DNA of 64,000 nucleotides from Tabrizicola thermarum (GTDB lineage: Bacteria > Pseudomonadota > Alphaproteobacteria > Rhodobacterales > Rhodobacteraceae). Numbering within the stretch: position 1 is the stretch's first letter; every line of letters begins with the position of its first letter. A program made the translations under genes and the position numbers. Positions 1 through 64,000 of this stretch are shown here, piece by piece. The notes beneath the pieces are model-generated. The model worked only from the letters and a program-made list of their open reading frames with translations, was not told the DNA's origin and searched no databases. The DNA is taken from contig NZ_QMJY01000018.1 of NCBI RefSeq assembly GCF_003574395.1, forward strand, positions 1-64,000. The letters are read 5' to 3'.

Positions 1-360
1 ACCATCCAGATGCAACCCCCGCCGATCCATCCCAAACCCCATCCCAACCTCAACTGTTGCGCTCCATTCTAGAGGTGAAGGATTGGCAAGGATTGCCGCG
101 CGTGCCCCGGCGGCCGCCCCCTGCCCTCGGCGCCTGTCCACTGCGGGGGCCGGGAGGCGCCTCTGGATACGGCTGCGCGTTTTCGGAAAGGCCGCTCCGG
201 GTGGTGAGTGAGGAGCCTCCGGCGGGAGTATTTGGGGAAAAGAGCAAGGGCGGGATAGTGGGGTCCGGTGGCCGCGGGCGGTCATGCCCGGGGCCCGGAA
301 GGGTGGGGCGTGGGCCTTGGTCCCGTTGGATCGGGGCGGGGGCTGGCGATCTGCCCTGGC
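1..360. other. Gene-free left edge with one dispersed repeat
   Basis: I see no convincing coding sequence here. The open frames are antisense or out-of-frame readings of GC-rich DNA, without a ribosome binding site or recognisable protein. A frame open from base 1 ends at a TAG at 70-72 and could be the last 23 codons of a gene outside the window, but its proline-rich translation matches nothing I know. The only recognisable element is the hairpin repeat at 215-248, beyond the end of the minus-strand gene that stops at 361. Confidence 0.5.
215..248 (+). repeat. Dispersed GGAGTATTTGGG hairpin element, copy 1
   Basis: A short stem (CTCC-ggc-GGGAG) is followed by TATTTGGGGAAAAGAGCAAG. The same core recurs at 21862-21894, 22074-22105 and 47773-47816, always between genes. 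Position and structure suggest a Rhodobacterales intergenic hairpin family that may act as transcription end or RNA-stabilising signal. That role is inference; the recurrence is seen directly. Confidence 0.75.
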
Positions 361-1065
361 TCAGAACCCGATGGTCTCGATCAGTCTTGCGGGCTTGACC
401 GGGACGATGCGTCCATCGGGCAGGGTGCGGGTTGCCCCACGCAGCGAGACGCGACGACCCGGCAGGCCGGCCTCGACGGCGAGGCGGTCGGCCTCGCTGA
501 CCCGGCGACCGGCGCAGGCGCCGTCCTTTTCCCACAGGGCACGGGTGATGGGACCGGCGACGACACTGGGGATGATCGCTTCGGACACGTCATTCTTCCG
601 GACCATGTTCTGCGCGACAAGGGCCTTGATGGCTTCGGCCATGACGTCAGCGGATTCCGCGAATTTCATCCCCGCGATGTCGCGTTCCCTGTCGGTCGGC
701 GTGCCGTCCTTGTTGCAGTTCCGCGCGATGAACAGCCAGTCATGCACCATGTAGGCCGGCGCATAGCCCCAGGGCGAGAAGCCCTTGAAGGCCTGGGCGA
801 TCCGGGGGATCGAGCCGCCGTCGGTATACATCATCTCGGGTCTGATCGACCTGACCGTGGCGGCGGGGTTCTTGCGCGTGAAGGTCAGTTCCTGCCCGGG
901 GACGGGAACGAAGACGAAGGTGCCAGAGCCCAGGGCCCCGCCATCGTCGATCCACATCAGGAAGATGCGGCCGCTGAACTCTCCGGGGTCTGCCTTCTGG
1001 TAGATGTTCGGGCCGCAGGCGGTGATGACGGCGGCCGACACGAGAACAAGCAATTTCGCGCGCAT
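361..1065 (-). CDS. DUF1353 family lipoprotein
   Basis: Protein of 234 residues. The start at 1065 is chosen because it gives a lipoprotein signal peptide: a charged MRAK start, a hydrophobic stretch, then VITAC with the lipidated cysteine near residue 17. The mature part carries the DUF1353 signatures DGGSIPR and, about 25 residues later, HDWLF, which contain the conserved Asp, Ser and His of that family. DUF1353 occurs in phage and bacterial proteins of unknown biochemical role. The C-terminal 60 residues, rich in Arg and Val, look family-poor. It is probably anchored to the inner or outer membrane facing the periplasm. It lies downstream of hemC on the same strand with a gap of about 165 bp, so it may have its own promoter. 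The function is unknown. Confidence 0.8.
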   Translation of the reverse strand: MRAKLLVLVSAAVITACGPNIYQKADPGEFSGRIFLMWIDDGGALGSGTFVFVPVPGQELTFTRKNPAATVRSIRPEMMYTDGGSIPRIAQAFKGFSPWGYAPAYMVHDWLFIARNCNKDGTPTDRERDIAGMKFAESADVMAEAIKALVAQNMVRKNDVSEAIIPSVVAGPITRALWEKDGACAGRRVSEADRLAVEAGLPGRRVSLRGATRTLPDGRIVPVKPARLIETIGF

Positions 1066-15450: not shown

Positions 15451-15804
15451 TCAGGGGGCTATAGTCAGTTCGACGCCAAGCCTTTCGGCGCGAGCGACGA
15501 GAACCATCGCCTGGACTGAATGAAGCCAATTCTTCCGATAAACGGCTAGCGCGTCAGGAGCATTCAACGCTCCGGAAGCCTCTAGCATTGCATCTCTTTC
15601 AGTGTGGCAGGCTGCAGAGAAAACCATTTCTGCCAGATCGAGCATGTTATCTTGTAACGGCTCTAGCTGCGTTGCCCAGTGAGCCAGGCATTGCGTCAGA
15701 CTTTGGGTGGTTTCTTCAACTCGCAAGTCATCAGCTTGCACCGCCGGAGCCAACAAGCCCGCCAGAAGAGCACAAACCACAAGGCTGAACGGAAGGAGTC
15801 TCAC
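15451..15804 (-). CDS. AT-richer small secreted protein between sucC and sucD
   Basis: 117 residues from a GTG start that overlaps the sucC stop codon (GTGA, 15801-15804). A clear signal peptide ([24 protein letters not shown], of which the first 20 residues are hydrophobic) precedes a short helical mature domain with two cysteines and ERLG-type C-terminal pattern. Third codon positions are often A or T (for example GTT, GCT, CTT, AAT), very unlike the GC-ending codons of sucC and sucD, which suggests horizontal acquisition into the operon. I do not recognise a family. Translational coupling to sucC indicates that it is expressed. Confidence 0.7.
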
Positions 15805-16994
15805 CCCCGCACCGCCTTGACGATCTTCTGGGCCGCATCCGACAGGTCGTCGGCGGCGATGACGTTCAGGCCGGACTTGTTGATGATGTCCTTGCCAAGC
15901 TCGACGTTGGTGCCTTCCAGCCGGACGACCAGCGGGACCTTGAGGCCGACTTCCTTCACCGCGGCGATCACGCCCTCGGCGATGATGTCGCAGCGCATGA
16001 TGCCGCCGAAGATGTTGACGAGGATGCCTTTGACGTTGGGGTCGGAGGTGATGATCTTGAAGGCCTCGGTCACCTTTTCCTTGGTGGCACCCCCGCCCAC
16101 GTCGAGGAAGTTGGCGGGCTCGGCGCCGTAAAGCTTGATGATGTCCATCGTGGCCATCGCGAGGCCCGCGCCGTTCACCATGCAGCCGATCTCGCCATCC
16201 AAGGCGATGTAGTTCAGGTCGAATTTCGAGGCGGCGAGTTCCTTGGGGTCCTCCTCGGTCTCGTCGCGCAGGGCGGCGATGTCGGGGTGGCGGTAGATCG
16301 CGTTGCCATCAAAGCCCATCTTGGCGTCAAGAAGGCGCAAGGAGCCGTCCTTCAGCACGCAGAAGGGGTTGATCTCCAGCATGTCCATGTCCTTGTCCAG
16401 GAACAGCTGGTAGAGCTTCTTCACGATCTGGACGCATTGCTTGACCTGCGCTCCGGTCAGCCCCAGCGCAAAGGCCACGCGGCGGCCGTGGAAGTCCTGG
16501 ATGCCCGTGGCGGGGTCGATGGTGAAGGTGTGGATCTTTTCCGGCGTGTCGTGGGCGACGTCCTCGATGCTCATCCCGCCTTCGGTCGAGGCGACGATCG
16601 AGATGCGGCTGGTCTGACGGTCGATCAGGAGGGCAAGGTAGAACTCGCGCTCAATGTCGGAACCGTCCTCGATGTAGATGCGGTTGACCTGCTTGCCGGC
16701 GGGGCCGGTCTGGACGGTGACAAGCGTGCGGCCCAGCATCTGACGGGCGAATTCGGCGGCCTCGCCGACCGAGCGGGCAAGGCGGACGCCGCCCTTTTCC
16801 CCGGCCTCGGGTTCCTTGAAATGGCCCTTGCCGCGGCCGCCCGCGTGGATCTGGGCCTTCACCACCCAGAGCGGGCCGTCCAGTTCGCCCGCGGCGGTCT
16901 TGGCGTCTTCGGCCTTCAGGACGACGCGGCCGTCAGAGACCGGGATGCCGTAGCTGCGCAGAAGGTCCTTGGCCTGGTATTCGTGGATGTTCAT
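15801..16994 (-). CDS. sucC: Succinyl-CoA synthetase beta subunit
   Basis: ATP-grasp subunit that binds the nucleotide and succinate. 397 residues. The start [12 protein letters not shown] is characteristic and is preceded by good spacing at 16994. Further signatures are [16 protein letters not shown] (ATP-grasp), LEINPFCVL (metal-binding), and [11 protein letters not shown] and LDVGGGAT in the C-terminal CoA ligase domain. First gene of the minus-strand suc operon; its upstream region carries the GTGATCAC array described below. Confidence 0.97.
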
Positions 16995-17104
16995 CGGGCG
17001 CCTCTTCTCGGCCGGGATTGTCAGGGGCGTTCTGGCACGGGTCGGGGCCGGTTCCAAACGGCAAATGCCTGTAATGCGGGGGAAATGCCGGGAAAATGAT
17101 GGAT

Positions 17105-17154
17105 GTGATCACGAGGTGGAAACGTGTGATCACGTGAGCGAAACGTGTGATCAC
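17105..17154. promoter_or_regulatory. Triple GTGATCAC operator array upstream of sucC
   Basis: Three perfect GTGATCAC palindromes begin at 17105, 17126 and 17147, exactly 21 bp apart, two DNA helical turns. The spacers share GAAACGT before the second and third sites. The array is 110-160 bp upstream of the sucC start and between it and the divergent aminotransferase gene. Two more copies with the same 21-bp spacing stand before sdhC. This is the hallmark of cooperative binding by a dimeric regulator, which I cannot name. Confidence 0.75.
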
Positions 17155-27903: not shown

Positions 27904-27966
27904 GTGATCACGGATTTTCAAGGCGTGATCACAAAGCGCGGAAATCGTGCTCCGCTAGCGGCAACA
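27904..27966. promoter_or_regulatory. sdh upstream operators: GTGATCAC pair and CCGCTAGCGG
   Basis: Two perfect GTGATCAC palindromes start at 27904 and 27925, again 21 bp apart, in the 209-bp mch-sdhC gap. A perfect CCGCTAGCGG palindrome (27952-27961) lies within GCTAGCGGCAACA, similar to elements before mdh and suc. A further single GTGATCAC is inside the end of sdhC (28443-28450). The arrangement mirrors the sucC upstream array. Confidence 0.7.
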
Positions 27967-28082
27967 TGCTGCAATCGCGGCATTCGCTGCGTGACACGGG
28001 CGAAATCCGCGCTATTCAGAAGAATGAACGACAGCCAGGTGCTGCCCCGGGGGGGCCGCGCCGCCAGACGTGAGGACCGACC

Positions 28083-28469
28083 ATGGCAGACGTGAAGCAG
28101 GCGGCGCGACCCCTGTCGCCCCATCTTCAGATCTATCGCTGGCAAGTGCCGATGCTGACCTCGATCCTGACGCGGATCACCGGGCACGCGCTGATCGCGG
28201 GCGTGGTGCTGGGGGTCTGGTGGCTGCTGGCGGCGGCGACATCGGACGCCTATTTCGCGGTGGCGAACGCGGTGGCGACGAGCTGGTTCGGCGATCTGGT
28301 GTTCACCGGGTCCTTGTGGGCGGTGTGGTATCACTATCTCGCCGGGCTTCGGCACCTTTACTATGACGCGGGCCGGGGCCTCGATATTCCGACGGCGGAA
28401 AAGCTGGGCTGGGCCGTCATCATCGGGTCGGTCGTGCTGACTGTGATCACAATTCTTCTGGTGCAGTGA
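28083..28469 (+). CDS. sdhC: Succinate dehydrogenase cytochrome b556 subunit
   Basis: Membrane anchor of complex II, with SdhD binding heme b and ubiquinone. 128 residues, three transmembrane helices. SPHLQIYRWQVPMLTSILTR at the N-terminus is the family start with the quinone-site Ser/Arg. His84 in HYLAGLRHLYYD is the heme b ligand (same number as E. coli SdhC), with His91 nearby. Opens the sdh operon about 150 bp after the GTGATCAC pair. Confidence 0.95.
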   Translation: MADVKQAARPLSPHLQIYRWQVPMLTSILTRITGHALIAGVVLGVWWLLAAATSDAYFAVANAVATSWFGDLVFTGSLWAVWYHYLAGLRHLYYDAGRGLDIPTAEKLGWAVIIGSVVLTVITILLVQ

Positions 28470-28859: not shown

Positions 28860-30665
28860 ATGATGACCGCCTATCCGTATGAGACGCATGAATATGACGT
28901 GGTCGTGGTGGGGGCCGGCGGCGCCGGTCTGCGCGCGACCCTGGGCATGGCCGAGCAGGGGCTGCGCACGGCCTGCGTGACCAAGGTCTTCCCGACCCGG
29001 TCGCACACTGTGGCGGCGCAGGGGGGGATTGCGGCGAGCCTTGGCAACATGGGGCCGGACCACTGGCAATGGCACATGTACGACACGGTGAAGGGGTCGG
29101 ACTGGCTGGGCGATACGGACGCGATGGAGTATCTGGCGCGCGAGGCCCCGAAGGCTGTTTACGAGCTGGAGCATTACGGGGTGCCCTTCAGCCGCACCGA
29201 AGAGGGCAAGATCTATCAGCGGCCCTTTGGCGGGCACACGACCGAGTTCGGCAACGGGCCTCCGGTGCAGCGGACCTGCGCGGCGGCGGACCGGACGGGG
29301 CATGCGATTCTGCATACTCTGTACGGGCAGAGCCTGAAGAACAACGCGGAGTTCTACATCGAGTATTTCGCCATCGACCTCATCATCACCGACGGGGCCT
29401 GCACCGGCGTTGTTGCCTGGAAGCTGGATGATGGCACGATCCATGTCTTCAACGCGAAGATGGTGGTGCTGGCGACGGGCGGCTATGGCCGGGCCTATTT
29501 CAGCGCGACCTCGGCGCATACCTGCACCGGGGACGGCGGCGGGATGGTGGCGCGGGCCGGTCTGCCCTTGCAGGACATGGAGTTCGTGCAGTTCCACCCG
29601 ACCGGCATCTATGGCTCGGGGTGCCTCATCACCGAAGGCGCGCGCGGCGAGGGCGGCTATCTGACCAACAGCGAGGGCGAGCGGTTCATGGAACGCTATG
29701 CGCCGCATTACAAGGACCTCGCGCCGCGCGACTATGTCAGCCGCTGCATGACGATCGAAATCCGGGAAGGCCGGGGGGTGGGGCCGAACAAGGACCATAT
29801 CCACCTGAACCTGTCGCACCTGCCGAAGGAATCGCTGGAGCAGCGCCTGCCGGGGATCACCGAGAGCGCGCGCATCTTCGCGGGCGTGGACCTGCACAAG
29901 GAGCCGATCCCGGTGCTGCCCACGGTGCATTACAACATGGGCGGCATCCCCACGAACTATTGGGGCGAGGTGCTGAACCCGACGAAGGACAACCCCGATG
30001 CGGTGTTCCCCGGGCTGATGGCGGTGGGCGAGGCGGGCTGTGCATCCGTGCATGGCGCGAACCGGCTGGGATCGAACAGCCTGATCGACCTGGTGGTCTT
30101 CGGCCGCGCTGCCGCGATCCGCGCCGGGCAGGTGGTGGACCGGGGCGCCTCGGTCCCCGCGACCAACAAGGCCGAGGTGGACAAGGCCCTGGCCCGGTTC
30201 GACGCGCTGCGCCATGCGAACGGGGCGGTGCCGACGGCCGAGTTGCGGCTGGAGATGCAGCGCACGATGCAGGCCGATGCGGCGGTGTTCCGGGCCGAGG
30301 AGACCCTGGCGGAGGGCGAGAAGAAGATGACGGCGATCGCGGGCAAGATGGGCGACCTGCATGTCACCGACCGCAGCCTGATCTGGAACAGCGACCTGAT
30401 GGAGACGCTGGAGCTGACCAACCTGATGCCGAACGCGCTGGCGACGATCTACGCGGCGCATGCCCGGACCGAAAGCCGCGGCGCCCATGCGCACGAGGAC
30501 TATCCGGCCCGTGACGATGTCAACTGGCGCAAACATTCGCTGGCCTGGGTGGCTGGCAACAAGGTGACGCTTGACTACCGCCCGGTGCACGGAGACCCTC
30601 TGACCAGCGAGGCAGAGGGCGGGATCCCCCTGGCCAAGATCGCCCCGGCGGAAAGGAAGTTCTGA
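28860..30665 (+). CDS. sdhA: Succinate dehydrogenase flavoprotein subunit
   Basis: Oxidises succinate to fumarate; FAD is covalently bound. 601 residues. [18 protein letters not shown] binds FAD, His49 in [11 protein letters not shown] carries the 8-alpha-histidyl FAD, and the catalytic arginine lies in [29 protein letters not shown] and [12 protein letters not shown] complete the active-site region. The gene starts with two ATGs in a row (28860 or 28863). The sdhA stop overlaps the start of an FkbM methyltransferase gene, which is unusual. Confidence 0.98.
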
Positions 30666-31501
30666 TGGCAGTCACGCTGCCGAGCCCGGAAGAAGCGCCG
30701 TTCGGGACCTTTTCGCCCGATACGGTGGCCCGTCTGGTGCTGGGCAAGCGTGACTTCAACCGCCCGCGCCGGGCTTGGCCCCTTTGGCGCAAGCTGGGGC
30801 GCGCGTGGTTGCACCGGTCGCGGCGGATTTTCGACGTGACCTATCATGGCTTTCGACTGCGACTGCACCCGGCTACCAACGCCGGGGACGAAGGCATAGT
30901 TCTGAACGGCATCCATGGCGAGGAGGATGAATTTGCCCGCGTGGCTGAGCGTGTGGCGGCCTATGAGAACTTCATCGACATTGGGGCCAACATCGGACTT
31001 TACAGCCTGATCGCGGCGCGGTTCCTGCCGGAAGGTCGGTCGATCATTGCCTTCGAGCCGGATCCCGGCACCGCGCGGCGGTTGCGGATCAACCTGGCGC
31101 TGAACGGCGTGACGCGGGTCGAGATCGTGCAGGCGGCGGTGTCGCCCGAACGGGGCGAGATGACGATCTACCGGGCACCGCACAGCATCGGGCTGACCAG
31201 TGCCAACAAACGGTTCGACGACTGGATCGAAGAGAGGGTGCCGACTGTGCCCTTGGCCGAGCGGGGTATCACCCGGATCGGGATGCTGAAGATCGACATC
31301 GAGGGGTTCGAGGACCAGGAGCTGCTGCCCTATTTCGACACGATGCCGCCCGAGGCATGGCCGCGCTATATCCTGATCGAGGTCTGCCACCACAAGTACT
31401 GGAAGCGCGACGTGGTGGCCGAACTGCGCGCAAAGGGCTACCGCGAAGTCTTCAGCAACATCCGCAACCTGCATTTCGAACGGGAAGGAGACCGGGCGTG
31501 A
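30665..31501 (+). CDS. FkbM family methyltransferase
   Basis: 278 residues. SAM-binding FIDIGANIGLYSLIAARFL near residue 100, AFEPDPGTARRL at the end of strand 2, and MLKIDIEGFEDQELL, the FkbM signature near residue 202. The family O-methylates sugars or other hydroxyls, often in natural-product or glycan pathways. The start codon overlaps the sdhA stop (TGATG), so translation is coupled to sdhA. Three further genes follow with overlaps or short gaps. No relation to complex II is evident; a glycan-modification role is inferred. Confidence 0.85.
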   Translation: MAVTLPSPEEAPFGTFSPDTVARLVLGKRDFNRPRRAWPLWRKLGRAWLHRSRRIFDVTYHGFRLRLHPATNAGDEGIVLNGIHGEEDEFARVAERVAAYENFIDIGANIGLYSLIAARFLPEGRSIIAFEPDPGTARRLRINLALNGVTRVEIVQAAVSPERGEMTIYRAPHSIGLTSANKRFDDWIEERVPTVPLAERGITRIGMLKIDIEGFEDQELLPYFDTMPPEAWPRYILIEVCHHKYWKRDVVAELRAKGYREVFSNIRNLHFEREGDRA

Positions 31502-31821
31502 CACGACTTCTGGGTTTTGTGGCCTTGCTGGGAACGCTGGCCGCCTGCGACCCGGCGGAACTGGTGCAGGACACGCTGAAGCGCACGGCGCATACGGTGG
31601 TGTTCCCGGTGGTGAACATCGACATGCCGGCGGAACCGGCGCGGAAGGCGACGAAATGCATCCTCGACGCGGCAAGCGAGGAGGAGTTGCGGCTTCTGGC
31701 GCGGGATGTGGGGGTGGAGGCCGGCACTTCGACCAAGGCCACCATCCGCGAGATCGCCGGGCGTCCGGCGGCGCGGGCCTGTTATGCGGCGAACGGCGTG
31801 CCGCCTCTGGTGGGCGGCTGA
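31498..31821 (+). CDS. Small lipoprotein inside the sdh operon
   Basis: 107 residues from a GTG start at 31498 that overlaps the upstream stop (GTGA). Signal: RLLGFVALLGTLAAC, with the lipobox cysteine in LAAC. The mature part has KCILDAASEEELRLLARD and ACYAANGVPPLVG, with two more cysteines that may form a disulfide. I do not recognise a family. It is probably anchored in the envelope. Confidence 0.65.
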   Translation: MTRLLGFVALLGTLAACDPAELVQDTLKRTAHTVVFPVVNIDMPAEPARKATKCILDAASEEELRLLARDVGVEAGTSTKATIREIAGRPAARACYAANGVPPLVGG

Positions 31822-31828
31822 CCGCGGG

Positions 31829-32665
31829 ATGGCAGAGCGGGCGGCATCGAAGGGGCGCATCAAGCCGGACCTGAGGGTCGCGGTCGTCTTCTTCGGCATC
31901 ACGCGCGCCTTGCGGCTGACCCTGCCCGCGATCGAGGCCAACATCATCGCCCCGGCCCGCGCCATCGCGCAAGAGGTGCGGCTGTTCGGGCATTTCTTCC
32001 GGCAGACGGAAATCAGCAATCCCCGCTCGGGCGAAAGCGGCGCGCTGGACCCCGAGGAATACCGGCTTCTGGCGCTGGACGCGGTGGAGATCGAGGAGCC
32101 GGGCGCCTGTCTGGACCTGTATCCGGTGGCCGAGATGCAGGCGAAGGGCGACATCTGGCGCGACGATTTCGCGTCGTTCAGGAACCTCGTGCACCAGCTG
32201 CATTCGTTGAAACGGGCAACTCTGCTGGCCGAAGGGGTCCGGCCCGACATCGTGATCTTCGCCCGGCCGGACCTGCTTTACCATGACAGCATGGCCGAGG
32301 CTCTGGACTTTCTGGCGCGCGTGCATCGGCAGTTCGTGCTGGTGCCGGACTGGTCGCAGTGGTTCGGGCTGAACGACCGCTTTGCGCTGGTGAAGGGGGC
32401 GGAGGCGATCGCGGCCTATGGCAGGCGGGCCGAGCGGATGGGCGAATATTGTGCGCGGGGCAAGCGGCTTCATGCCGAACGCTTCCTGAAATACGCGCTG
32501 GAGGGTCAGCGGGTGCGCCCGGTGCATCTGCGCGCCTCGCGCGTGAGGTCGAACGGGTTGCAGGTGCTGGAAGATTTCACCCCCGGTCGCGGGCCGATGG
32601 GCAAGCCGGACCTCGTGCCGCTGGGGACGATCCGGGCCGAGACGCCTGTGGCGAGGAGTGCATGA
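31829..32665 (+). CDS. Putative glycan-related protein, family not recognised
   Basis: 278 residues from ATG at 31829. LRVAVVFFGITRALRLTLPA at the start, DIVIFARPDLLYHDS near residue 150 and WFGLNDRFALVKGAEAIAAY form the pattern of orphan glycan-biosynthesis proteins in Rhodobacteraceae, in which ARPDLxY replaces the usual DxD motif. It has no signal peptide. Weak ribosome binding site. I infer a glycosyltransferase-like role but cannot prove it. Confidence 0.5.
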   Translation: MAERAASKGRIKPDLRVAVVFFGITRALRLTLPAIEANIIAPARAIAQEVRLFGHFFRQTEISNPRSGESGALDPEEYRLLALDAVEIEEPGACLDLYPVAEMQAKGDIWRDDFASFRNLVHQLHSLKRATLLAEGVRPDIVIFARPDLLYHDSMAEALDFLARVHRQFVLVPDWSQWFGLNDRFALVKGAEAIAAYGRRAERMGEYCARGKRLHAERFLKYALEGQRVRPVHLRASRVRSNGLQVLEDFTPGRGPMGKPDLVPLGTIRAETPVARSA

Positions 32666-32967
32666 TGAAACAGGGGATCGCGGCAGGGCTGCTTCTGGCG
32701 TCGCTGGTTCTGGGTGCCTGCGGGCCGATGTCGCTGGCCGAGGCCGAGCGGCAGTGCTTTGAGCGCGCGCGGCTGGCCAAGCAGCCCCGGGGCGAGGTGT
32801 CGGTCGGCGTGGGCTCGGGCGGGCGGACTTCGGCGGGGCTGGAGCTGAACGTGAGTTCGGATTTCCTGCTGGGCCGCGACCCCTCGGCGGTCTATGAGTC
32901 CTGCGTGATGCAGAAGGCGGGCGAGCCGCCGAGCAGACCCCTGTATGCAAGGCCGGACTGGCGGTGA
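32665..32967 (+). CDS. Small lipoprotein
   Basis: About 100 residues; MKQGIAAGLLLASLVLGACG gives a lipobox (LGAC). Then EAERQCFERARLAKQPRGEV and a Gly/Ser-rich stretch SVGVGSGGRTSAG that leads to DPSAVYESCVMQKAG. The pattern of two cysteines in helices flanking a glycine-rich strand occurs in small envelope lipoproteins of Rhodobacterales; function unknown. ATG at 32665 follows GGAG with 6 bases; ATG at 32662 overlaps the previous stop. Confidence 0.65.
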   Translation: MKQGIAAGLLLASLVLGACGPMSLAEAERQCFERARLAKQPRGEVSVGVGSGGRTSAGLELNVSSDFLLGRDPSAVYESCVMQKAGEPPSRPLYARPDWR

Positions 32968-33752
32968 TGGCCCAGGATGTGATCCCCACGCCCGACCCGA
33001 AGGCCGTGCGCTTCGCCAGAGGTGCGCTGGAGCGCATCCGGCGGCGGCGTGTGCGCGAGTTCGAGGCGATGGTGGCGACCGGCTTCACCCGGACCTGTCC
33101 GGTCTGCGGCTATGTGGGCGAGTTTGCCCCGGTCGGCGAGCCGCCGCGTCTGGACGGGTTGTGCCCCCTGTGCCGGTCGCGGGAACGCCATCGCCTGTTC
33201 AAGCTGTGGATCGACCGGCGGGGGGGCATCGGCAAGGAGATGTCGGTGCTGCATTTCGCGCCGGAACCGATGTTCGAGCCGATCCTGCGGGGGTTGGCGG
33301 GCACCTATGTCACCGCCGATTTCATGCGCAGGAAGGTCGACCGCAAGCTGAACATCGAGGCTCTGGAGCTGGAGGATGCCAGTTTCGACCTGATCGTCGC
33401 ACATCAGATCCTGGAACATGTGGATCATCACAAGGCGCTGGCCGAGTGTTTCCGGTGCCTGAGGCCCGGCGGTCGGCTGGTGGTGACGACCCCCGTGATC
33501 GAGGCCTGGGCGACGACCTATGTCAATCCGGCCATCACCACCCCGCGCGAGCGGATGCTGCATTTCGGCCAGAAGGATCACAGCCGCTATTTCGGCCGCG
33601 ACCTGAAGGATCACATGCGCGCGGCCGGGTTCGAGCTTTACGAATTCGTCTCGGTCGAGCCGGACGTTTCCACCTATTCCCTCATGCGCGGCGAGACCTT
33701 GTACGAGCTGACGAAACCCGCCGCACCGAACCCCAAGACCAGGAAAGGCTGA
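32967..33752 (+). CDS. SAM methyltransferase with N-terminal zinc ribbon
   Basis: About 261 residues. A two-CxxC zinc ribbon (CPVCGYVG near residue 43 and LCPLCRSRERHR near 65) precedes a class I methyltransferase: SVLHFAPEPMFE, FDLIVAHQILEHVDHH (post-strand-4, with His-Val-Asp as in other members) and GGRLVVTTPV. Known relatives are type 11 methyltransferases associated with polysaccharide loci. Last of five inserted genes before sdhB. The start ATG overlaps the previous stop (TGATG). Confidence 0.8.
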   Translation: MAQDVIPTPDPKAVRFARGALERIRRRRVREFEAMVATGFTRTCPVCGYVGEFAPVGEPPRLDGLCPLCRSRERHRLFKLWIDRRGGIGKEMSVLHFAPEPMFEPILRGLAGTYVTADFMRRKVDRKLNIEALELEDASFDLIVAHQILEHVDHHKALAECFRCLRPGGRLVVTTPVIEAWATTYVNPAITTPRERMLHFGQKDHSRYFGRDLKDHMRAAGFELYEFVSVEPDVSTYSLMRGETLYELTKPAAPNPKTRKG

Positions 33753-62389: not shown

Positions 62390-63289
62390 TCAGGCCGCTG
62401 CGCGGTGCTGGCTCAGGACCCTCGCCATCGTTTCGCCCATCGCCGAAGGGTTCGGCGCGACGGTGATGCCGGCGGCGGTCAGGATTTCCACCTTCTCTTG
62501 CGCGCTTTCGCCGAAGGCCGAAATGATCGCCCCGGCATGGCCCATCTTCCGGCCCTTGGGGGCCGATAGCCCGGCAATATAGGCCACGATCGGCTTGGTC
62601 ATGTGCTTCGCTGCCCAGGCCGCAGCCTCGGCCTCCTGCGGGCCGCCGATCTCGCCGATCATCATCACGGCGTCGGTCTCCGGATCCTGCTGGAACAGCT
62701 CCAGAATGTCGCGGAAGGACGAACCGTTGATCGGATCGCCCCCGATGCCGACGCTGGTCGAGACGCCGATCCCAAGCTCTTTCATCTGCGAGGCGGCCTC
62801 ATAGCCCAGCGTCCCCGACCGGCCGATGATGCCGACGCGGCCCGGCATGTAGATGTGCGGCGGCATGATCCCCATGAAGCCCTTGCCGGGCGAGATGATG
62901 CCCGCGCAGTTCGGCCCGATCAGACGCATCTTGCGGCTTTCCGGATAGCGGCGCAGGAAGCGTTTGACCCGCATCATGTCCTGCGCGGGGATGCCGTCGG
63001 TGACGCAGACGGCGGTGCGGATGCCGGCATCCGCAGCCTCCATGATCGCGTCGGCGGCAAAGGGTGGGGGCACGAAGACAAGCGAGGCTTCGGCTCCGGT
63101 CGCCTCGACCGCTTCGCGGACGGTGTTGAACAGCGGGCGATCCAGCAGACGCTCGCCGCCCTTGCCGGGGGTCACGCCGCCGACGACGTTGGTGCCGTGC
63201 CGTATCATGTCGGCGGCATGGAACTGGCCGATGCGGCCGGACATGCCCTGGACGATGACGCGGGTCTTTTCGGTGATCAGGATGGCCAT
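62390..63289 (-). CDS. mtkB: Malate-CoA ligase alpha subunit (malate thiokinase small subunit)
   Basis: 299 residues, same fold as Suc[29 protein letters not shown], and the phosphorylated His251 in GRKMGHAGAII. It is closer to the methylotroph MtkB than to the SucD at 14.5 kb: TDGIPAQDMMRVKRFLRRYP and GRSGTLGYEAASQMKELGIG and NGSSFRDIL match the MtkB pattern I recall from Methylobacterium. With MtkA it forms malyl-CoA from malate, ATP and CoA, which a lyase then splits to acetyl-CoA and glyoxylate (serine-cycle direction). Located nine bases after mtkA. Confidence 0.87.
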   Translation of the reverse strand: MAILITEKTRVIVQGMSGRIGQFHAADMIRHGTNVVGGVTPGKGGERLLDRPLFNTVREAVEATGAEASLVFVPPPFAADAIMEAADAGIRTAVCVTDGIPAQDMMRVKRFLRRYPESRKMRLIGPNCAGIISPGKGFMGIMPPHIYMPGRVGIIGRSGTLGYEAASQMKELGIGVSTSVGIGGDPINGSSFRDILELFQQDPETDAVMMIGEIGGPQEAEAAAWAAKHMTKPIVAYIAGLSAPKGRKMGHAGAIISAFGESAQEKVEILTAAGITVAPNPSAMGETMARVLSQHRAAA

Positions 63290-63298
63290 GCTGTCCTC

Positions 63299-64000
63299 CT
63301 ATGCAGCCAGTTTCGGACGGGCGGCCACGGCCTTGGCGGCGGCCTCGGCCAGAGTATCGGCGGTGATGAGCGGCAGCCCCGAGCTTTCGAGGATCGCCTT
63401 GCCTTCCTCGACATTGGTGCCCGCCAGGCGGACGACGACGGGGATGGTCATGCCGACCTCGCGGTAGGCCTTCACGACGCCCTCGGCCACCCAGTCGCAG
63501 CGGTTGATCCCGGCGAAGATGTTCACAAGGATCACGCTGACATTGCGGTCGGCCAGCACGGTGCGGAAGGCGCGGACCACGCGGTCGGGGCTGGCGCCGC
63601 CGCCGATGTCGAGGAAGTTGGCAGGTTCGCCGCCAGCCAGCTTTATCATGTCCATCGTGGCCATGGCGAGGCCCGCGCCGTTGATGATGCAGCCGATGTC
63701 CCCGGTCAGGCCCACATAGGCGAGGCCATGGTCCCCGGCGGTGGATTCACGCGGGTCCTCCTGGCTGCGGTCGCGCAGTTCGGCGATCTCGGGGCGGCGG
63801 AAGAGGGCCTTGGTGTCGAAGCTCATCTTCGCATCGACCGCCAGAAGGTCGCCCGCCCCGGTGATGACCAGGGGGTTGATCTCGACCATCATCGCGTCAA
63901 GGTCGCGGTAGGCGCGGTAGCAGGCCTGAAGGATGGTCACCATCTGGGTGATCTGCGTGCCCGACAGGCCAAGCCCGAAGGCGAGTTCGCGGGCCTGGAA
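63299..64000 (-). CDS. mtkA: Malate-CoA ligase beta subunit, partial (3' part)
   Basis: The C-terminal 233 residues are in the window; the gene continues beyond the right edge with no stop, reading back from [19 protein letters not shown] at the border. [45 protein letters not shown] and [17 protein letters not shown] follow the SucC/MtkA pattern. The [15 protein letters not shown] segment, where SucC has [15 protein letters not shown], marks it as the malate-specific family. ATP-dependent subunit of malate thiokinase with MtkB. Confidence 0.85.

Follow-up and report, generated by a model that had tools for sequence, protein, structure and literature searches.

The window analyzed here, the whole 64-kb stretch of Tabrizicola thermarum DNA, contains two large operons of the TCA cycle. 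The sucC-sucD-sucA stretch starts with sucC, and the succinate dehydrogenase operon starts with sdhC (Table 1). The start of sucC was set at 16994 via the conserved sequence MNIHEYQ; the ORF call itself began at an upstream TTG. Upstream of sucCD/sucAB-lpd and of sdh lie five palindromes, all of which are exact copies of GTGATCAC. The first two palindromes before sucC (17105-17133) constitute the sucC pair that corresponds to the pair seen in relatives. Putative -35 and -10 elements were assigned between each operator and its gene.

Table 1. Genes, palindromes, and predicted promoter elements at the two operators in the window.
Feature	Position	Strand	Basis and remarks
sucC, first gene of the sucC-sucD-sucA stretch	15801..16994	-	ORF, conserved start MNIHEYQ
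sucC predicted -10 (weak)	17029-17034	-	Inferred from operator-anchored alignment of relatives
sucC predicted -35, TTGGAA	17052..17057	-	Inferred from operator-anchored alignment of relatives
sucC operator, promoter-proximal palindrome	17105..17112		Exact match; centre ~114 bp from the sucC start codon
sucC operator, second palindrome	17126..17133		Exact match; 21 bp from the first
sucC operator, third palindrome	17147..17154		Exact match; a further 21 bp on
sdhC operator, distal palindrome	27904..27911		Exact match
sdhC operator, proximal palindrome	27925..27932		Exact match; 21 bp from the distal one
sdhC predicted -35, GTGACA	27991..27996	+	Conserved CGTGACA block, assigned in 71/81 regions
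sdhC predicted -10, TATTCA	28013..28018	+	16 bp past the -35 element
sdhC, first gene of the succinate dehydrogenase operon	28083..28469	+	ORF

By exact match, GTGATCAC occurs six times in the window: the five copies in Table 1 and one copy starting at 28443. Shuffling the window 100 times gave 0.87 copies on average and 4 at maximum. All six copies are at the positions given in the original prediction. The copy at 28443 is inside sdhC, where it encodes the codons Val-Ile-Thr. A copy of GTGATCAC within ~1.3 kb downstream of the operator was observed in 13 of 81 sdhC loci, at differing positions, and therefore the copy at 28443 is probably due to chance; it was rejected as a part of the operator. 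A repeat of GAAACGT in each spacer of the sucC array had also been reported. This heptamer does end both sucC spacers, but it is a local feature, as the spacer across 65 sucC regions shows only an A/T-rich middle part.

The whole genome (3.65 Mb) contains 26 copies of GTGATCAC. Among the 20 single copies beyond the window, 17 are inside called ORFs and three are outside (L002, L007, and L320), based on crude ORF calling. The number of copies in the genome is lower than the ~50 scaled from the window shuffles; GTGATCAC may be avoided outside operators. The exact pair GTGATCAC-N13-GTGATCAC is observed only three times in the genome, twice in overlapping arrangement before sucC and once before sdhC. 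No pair with one mismatch, one pair with two mismatches, and 41 pairs with three mismatches were found, while the reversed pattern, used as a control, had no match in the whole genome. G191, from the same genus, likewise has three pair matches in its genome, and most other genomes of the family have one or two.

The exact pair is present in 205 of 248 genomes from the same family (247 genera), mostly once or twice per genome, and the reversed-pattern control is found in none of the 248. The 21-bp pitch is thus conserved in relatives, as the original prediction had required. In a draw of 289 genomes from the class, three of the four family members have the pair vs two of the 285 genomes from other families. 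A scan of gaps from 0 to 30 bp in 120 family genomes revealed 210 pairs, 177 of which have the gap of 13 bp. A gap of 12 bp is seen, among the matches listed, in G069 (twice), G079, and G087.

The scan of named genomes yielded at least 120 stretches with at least 127 pairs, of which 58 are before sucC, 43 are before sdhC, and 26 are at neither gene. The earlier claim that the palindromes are an operator of the TCA cycle holds. Among the matches listed, the 26 pairs at neither gene are divided into 21 outside Rhodobacterales and five in Rhodobacterales. Three pairs from Rhodobacterales (L183, L210, and L214) adjoin mdh in cut-off stretches and are presumed to represent the sucC side. The presence of scattered pairs would fit a reading in which the pairs arise by chance, or as a structural repeat without a regulator. 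Against it stand the return of the same two operons again and again and the empty reversed-pattern control in the family; because of this conservation, the reading is already refuted, and the probability left to it is negligible.

Two scattered pairs were considered as operators and rejected. The L203 pair is inside an ABC-transporter-like ORF and the L208 pair, from Rhodobacterales, is inside a folC-like ORF, both read from translations; they are taken as chance occurrences. At L266:5062-5090 (Yoonia) there is an exact pair, and genes of the TCA cluster were not matched in that locus. In G042, a genome of the family, a third exact pair lies away from sucC and sdhC (L295:2294-2322, C16). At L076:5933-5961 the pair is before sucA, and neither sucC nor sucD was matched in the locus; it therefore appears that the 2-oxoglutarate dehydrogenase genes have kept the operator.

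Among 20 chosen loci, each 18.6-20 kb long, the pair is before sdhC in all 20 and before sucC in 19, and the second pair of L076 is the one before sucA; these loci were picked for both pairs lying near each other, and the counts are therefore no measure of frequency. The alignment of 65 sucC and 59 sdhC regions showed the shape of the site. The distal palindrome is extended to approximately TTTGTGATCACA and the proximal palindrome to approximately TGTGATCACAAA, and the spacer has an A/T-rich middle part. The invariance of the core in these aligned regions is built in because nearly all of them were fetched with the exact pattern, and it is the flanks and the spacer that are free results.

We take RSP_0981 of R. 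sphaeroides to be AkgR, and genome G051 is presumably R. sphaeroides 2.4.1. The control of these operons by AkgR has reportedly been tested in the AkgR paper. In the excerpts available from published sources, GTGATCAC was identified among the sites bound by AkgR, a GntR-type activator in R. sphaeroides (PMC6365646), and a network paper from 2015 predicted that RSP_0981, a GntR protein, regulates RSP_0967-6 (sucCD), RSP_0974-6 (sdh), and RSP_0965-62 (2-oxoglutarate dehydrogenase) (PMC4344238). The operator, its regulator, and its targets are already known, and with these records the suggestion of an undescribed operator falls. It is almost certain that AkgR, a regulator already described, docks at this palindrome.

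The akgR ortholog is located outside the window in the Tabrizicola genome (G000 C68, ~149-793, minus strand). It encodes a protein with the GntR domain and the ligand domain FCD, which shares 81% identity with the protein from the presumed R. sphaeroides genome. The nearest solved structure to AkgR by sequence is that of E. coli McbR (4p9f). In the presumed R. sphaeroides genome, pairs are found before sucC and sdhC, and the GntR gene corresponding to AkgR is located ~0.7 kb behind sdhB. As for autoregulation of akgR, no GTGATCAC was found in the 4.5 kb around Tabrizicola akgR (L060). A paralog of AkgR with 40-44% identity is encoded at L062:2962-3618, beside ORFs that read as sugar-metabolism genes.

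Another published regulator of the TCA cycle is CceR (RSP_1663), and it is predicted to regulate succinate dehydrogenase and mdh (PMC4344238). This speaks for CceR as the owner of the site. However, the motif predicted for CceR in the available part of that paper is [A/G/T]GTT-N6-8-AAC[A/C/T] (PMC4344238), and GTGATCAC does not contain the GTT-N6-8-AAC inverted repeat. CceR was rejected on this motif, and it is very improbable as the owner of the site.

The distribution of AkgR was compared with that of the pair. With a presence call of E <= 1e-50, AkgR is found in 224 of the 248 family genomes. Both AkgR and the pair are present in 202 genomes, only AkgR in 22, only the pair in three, and neither in 21, corresponding to an odds ratio of 64, uncorrected for ancestry. 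The single control, the second GntR protein of the Tabrizicola genome, gave 173, 17, 32, and 26 genomes in the same order and an odds ratio of 8.3. The control also tracks the pair, indicating that shared ancestry explains part of the link between AkgR and the pair. AkgR fits the distribution of the pair much better than the one control GntR protein does. In the class draw, AkgR is found in all four family members and in none of the 285 other genomes.

Among the three genomes with the pair but without close AkgR, G019 and G114 encode relatives 36-37% identical to AkgR, and in G096 (77% complete) no relative of AkgR was detected at E <= 1e-15. Among the 22 genomes with AkgR but without the exact pair, the matches listed include pairs with another gap in G009, G055, G061, G066, G069, and G087. 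G040, which belongs to the same group, has two pairs with a single mismatch each, 7.5 kb apart, among the matches listed.

One of the two pairs outside the family in the class draw is L308:992-1020. It has the same 21-bp pitch and is immediately before an ORF (1028-1903) for a GntR/FCD protein 32% identical to AkgR. The ORF was called from 1028, and the true start may be further in. A gene for a TonB receptor faces away on the other side of the pair, and a near-copy, ATGATCAC, is present 20 bp further up from the pair.

The operator could be used by a regulator other than AkgR. The three pair-positive genomes without close AkgR and the association of the control GntR protein with the pair are compatible with this. 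The sites of the FadR subfamily of GntR regulators, as described in the excerpt of the source, usually have three (or two) nucleotides between GT and AC, most typically as GT-N3-AC, whereas the palindrome of AkgR has four, GT-N4-AC (PMC4494728). On the other hand, published work ties GTGATCAC to AkgR (PMC6365646) and AkgR to these operons (PMC4344238), the odds ratio is 64 for AkgR against 8.3 for the control, and at L308, outside the family, the pair immediately precedes a gene for an AkgR-like protein. We consider another regulator quite improbable.

Similar arrangements are known for related regulators, as far as the excerpts of the sources describe them. Regulators of the FadR subfamily also have paired sites at a constant distance, which were read as one cooperative site; unlike the pairs for AkgR, they are found in divergent regions with the regulator gene (PMC4494728). 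PS417_07240, which regulates deoxyribonate oxidation in Pseudomonas simiae, is 32% identical to AkgR, and its cluster contains a conserved GTGATCAC. It differs from AkgR in its target genes, and a single palindrome is described for it, spanning -47 to -40 relative to the predicted start codon (PMC6365646).

The geometry between operator and promoter was analyzed with positions counted from the base at which the distal palindrome begins. Peaks of A/T content are observed near 31, 41, 51, 61, and 71 at both the sucC and sdhC operons. The amplitude of A/T content at 10.4 bp in the region 30-110 is 0.107 for sucC and 0.122 for sdhC, while the maxima of 500 phase-randomized sets are 0.032 and 0.035, respectively. 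Upstream of the operator (-55 to -5), the amplitude is 0.039 for sucC and 0.020 for sdhC vs 0.026 and 0.026 in the randomized sets. The value of 0.039 against 0.026 indicates a weak A/T rhythm upstream of the sucC operator too.

Promoters were searched in enlarged sets of 96 sucC and 81 sdhC regions. For sdhC, the search was of the leave-one-out type with a block of 33 columns (CGTGACA...TAt), a start free between 32 and 149, and a chosen cut-off of 6 bits. It was ended after 15 rounds, and a search with nine columns settled after 7. With 33 columns, 71 of the 81 regions were assigned: 57 at the main place (-1 to +2), seven at +10 to +12, and seven at +20 to +22. In all 71, the site is upstream of the -35 element and in phase with the predicted promoter, as in class I activation; the other 10 of the 81 are below the cut-off and outside the phase count, with best placements scattered from -52 to +47.

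Nine columns of the -35 block alone, which do not include an A-tract, assigned 70 regions, with 54 at the main place, seven at +11 to +13, and seven at +20 to +22; the two exceptions are at -10 and -30, so 68 of 70 fall either into the main class or into the classes one and two turns beyond it. Literal counts of GTGAC are in agreement, with 54 at 87-90, six at 99-100, and seven at 108-110, with single occurrences at 45, 78, and 116. A set of 12 held-out sdhC regions is consistent with this pattern. The 33 columns assigned 10 of them, nine falling at 0 to +1 and the tenth at -12; the nine columns assigned 11, with nine at 0 to +1 and the other two at -11 and -12. In the held-out region at -12, the predicted promoter is approximately one turn closer and misses an exact turn by 1-2 bp.

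In a quick tree of 78 rows (68 assigned), the three spacing classes of sdhC require a minimum of 11 changes when gains and losses are pooled, and seven of these are forced by well-supported branches (main class). When the unassigned rows are counted as the main class, there are 12 changes, eight of which are forced. By these placements, the sdhC operator seems to have shifted on many occasions by one or two whole turns, whereas no assigned case represents a shift by a half turn.

The promoter block is weaker at sucC than at sdhC. The first search for the sucC promoter drifted into coding DNA, and its result was not used. In the search used here, the coding part was shut out and the cut-off was 5 bits (6 bits for sdhC). 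With 33 columns, 78 of the 96 sucC regions were assigned and 18 were left unassigned. The predicted promoter is in phase with the operator in 76 of the 78 and off phase in two, and nine of the 76 are one or two turns away. Blocks of 41 or 18 columns gave more scattered placements than the 33-column block. The main predicted promoter of sucC is ~11 bp, or one turn, nearer to the operator than that of sdhC.

With respect to the AkgR operators of R. sphaeroides, the palindrome and the operons are the same and the regulator is orthologous. Published accounts, in the parts available, provide the palindrome and the target prediction, whereas the 21-bp pair, the third sucC copy, and the whole-turn spacing come from the present analysis of Tabrizicola and the family. 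These three features were not found in the excerpts of literature searched, a set in which the primary AkgR paper is not included. The pair and the whole-turn promoter spacing are possibly undescribed.

Taken together, the arrangement suggests a mechanism. It is very likely that AkgR dimers on palindromes spaced by 21 bp, on one face of the DNA, would activate the sucC and sdhC promoters from far upstream. Two AkgR dimers, perhaps three at sucC, would bind neighboring palindromes on the same helix face and would probably touch each other. From the geometry alone, we infer that the binding is cooperative. AkgR would then activate the sigma-70 promoters of sucC(DAB) and sdhC(DAB) from ~87-97 bp upstream of the predicted start. 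The centre of the nearest palindrome is at ~-87 for sucC and ~-97 for sdhC, assuming a start 7 bp past the predicted -10. The contact with RNA polymerase is proposed to need the right helical face, since the distance between operator and promoter shifts by approximately whole turns. The in-phase A/T tracts that occupy the gap would serve either to bind the alpha subunit of the polymerase or to bend the DNA. The alpha-subunit contact, the start sites, and the ligand are points that we infer.

AkgR might instead be a repressor or a dual regulator, in which case the turn-phased spacing would reflect DNA looping or bending and not activation. Geometry alone cannot separate activation from repression, and phased A/T tracts are also a mark of curved DNA. 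However, it is rare for operators to block polymerase when they are 87 bp or more ahead of the promoter. AkgR is, moreover, described as a transcriptional activator in the excerpt of the source (PMC6365646). A role as repressor or dual regulator is unlikely.

Activation by AkgR would have a parallel in E. coli CRP, for which the available part of the source reports that activation varies with the ~10.5-bp helical periodicity of the distance to the promoter (PMC6301791). Class I CRP is similarly an upstream activator with a helical dependence on promoter distance. Unlike AkgR, CRP is not a GntR protein, and the measured CRP sites are single sites at -60.5 to -82.5, while the AkgR pairs are centred further up (PMC6301791). 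The periodicity for CRP is that of measured expression, whereas the periodicity for the AkgR pair is read from evolution.

The geometry predicts that an operator moved by an insertion of 10 or 11 bp works and one moved by 5 bp fails, and it hints at how a GntR-type activator reaches RNA polymerase. The pair can also serve as an almost exact string with which to search genomes of Rhodobacteraceae for control of the TCA cycle by AkgR. In a wider reading, to which we incline only slightly, the 21-bp tandem would be a protein property of AkgR-like GntR/FCD regulators, which would bind as phased dimer pairs, be reused outside the TCA cycle as at L308, and keep operator and promoter locked to one face. 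If this wider reading is true, the shifts of the sdhC operator would amount to a natural experiment on helix phasing by an activator of the GntR family, legible in genome sequences by themselves.

Two other observations concern the gene composition of the window. Between sdhA and sdhB, ~3 kb (30665-33752) is occupied by other ORFs, some of which are methyltransferase-like, as read from translations; the gap between sdhA and sdhB also varies among the relatives in the 20 chosen loci, with a few bases at one extreme and more than 3 kb at the other. At the right edge (62390-63943), far from the TCA cluster, there are ORFs whose translations resemble a second pair of the sucC/sucD type.
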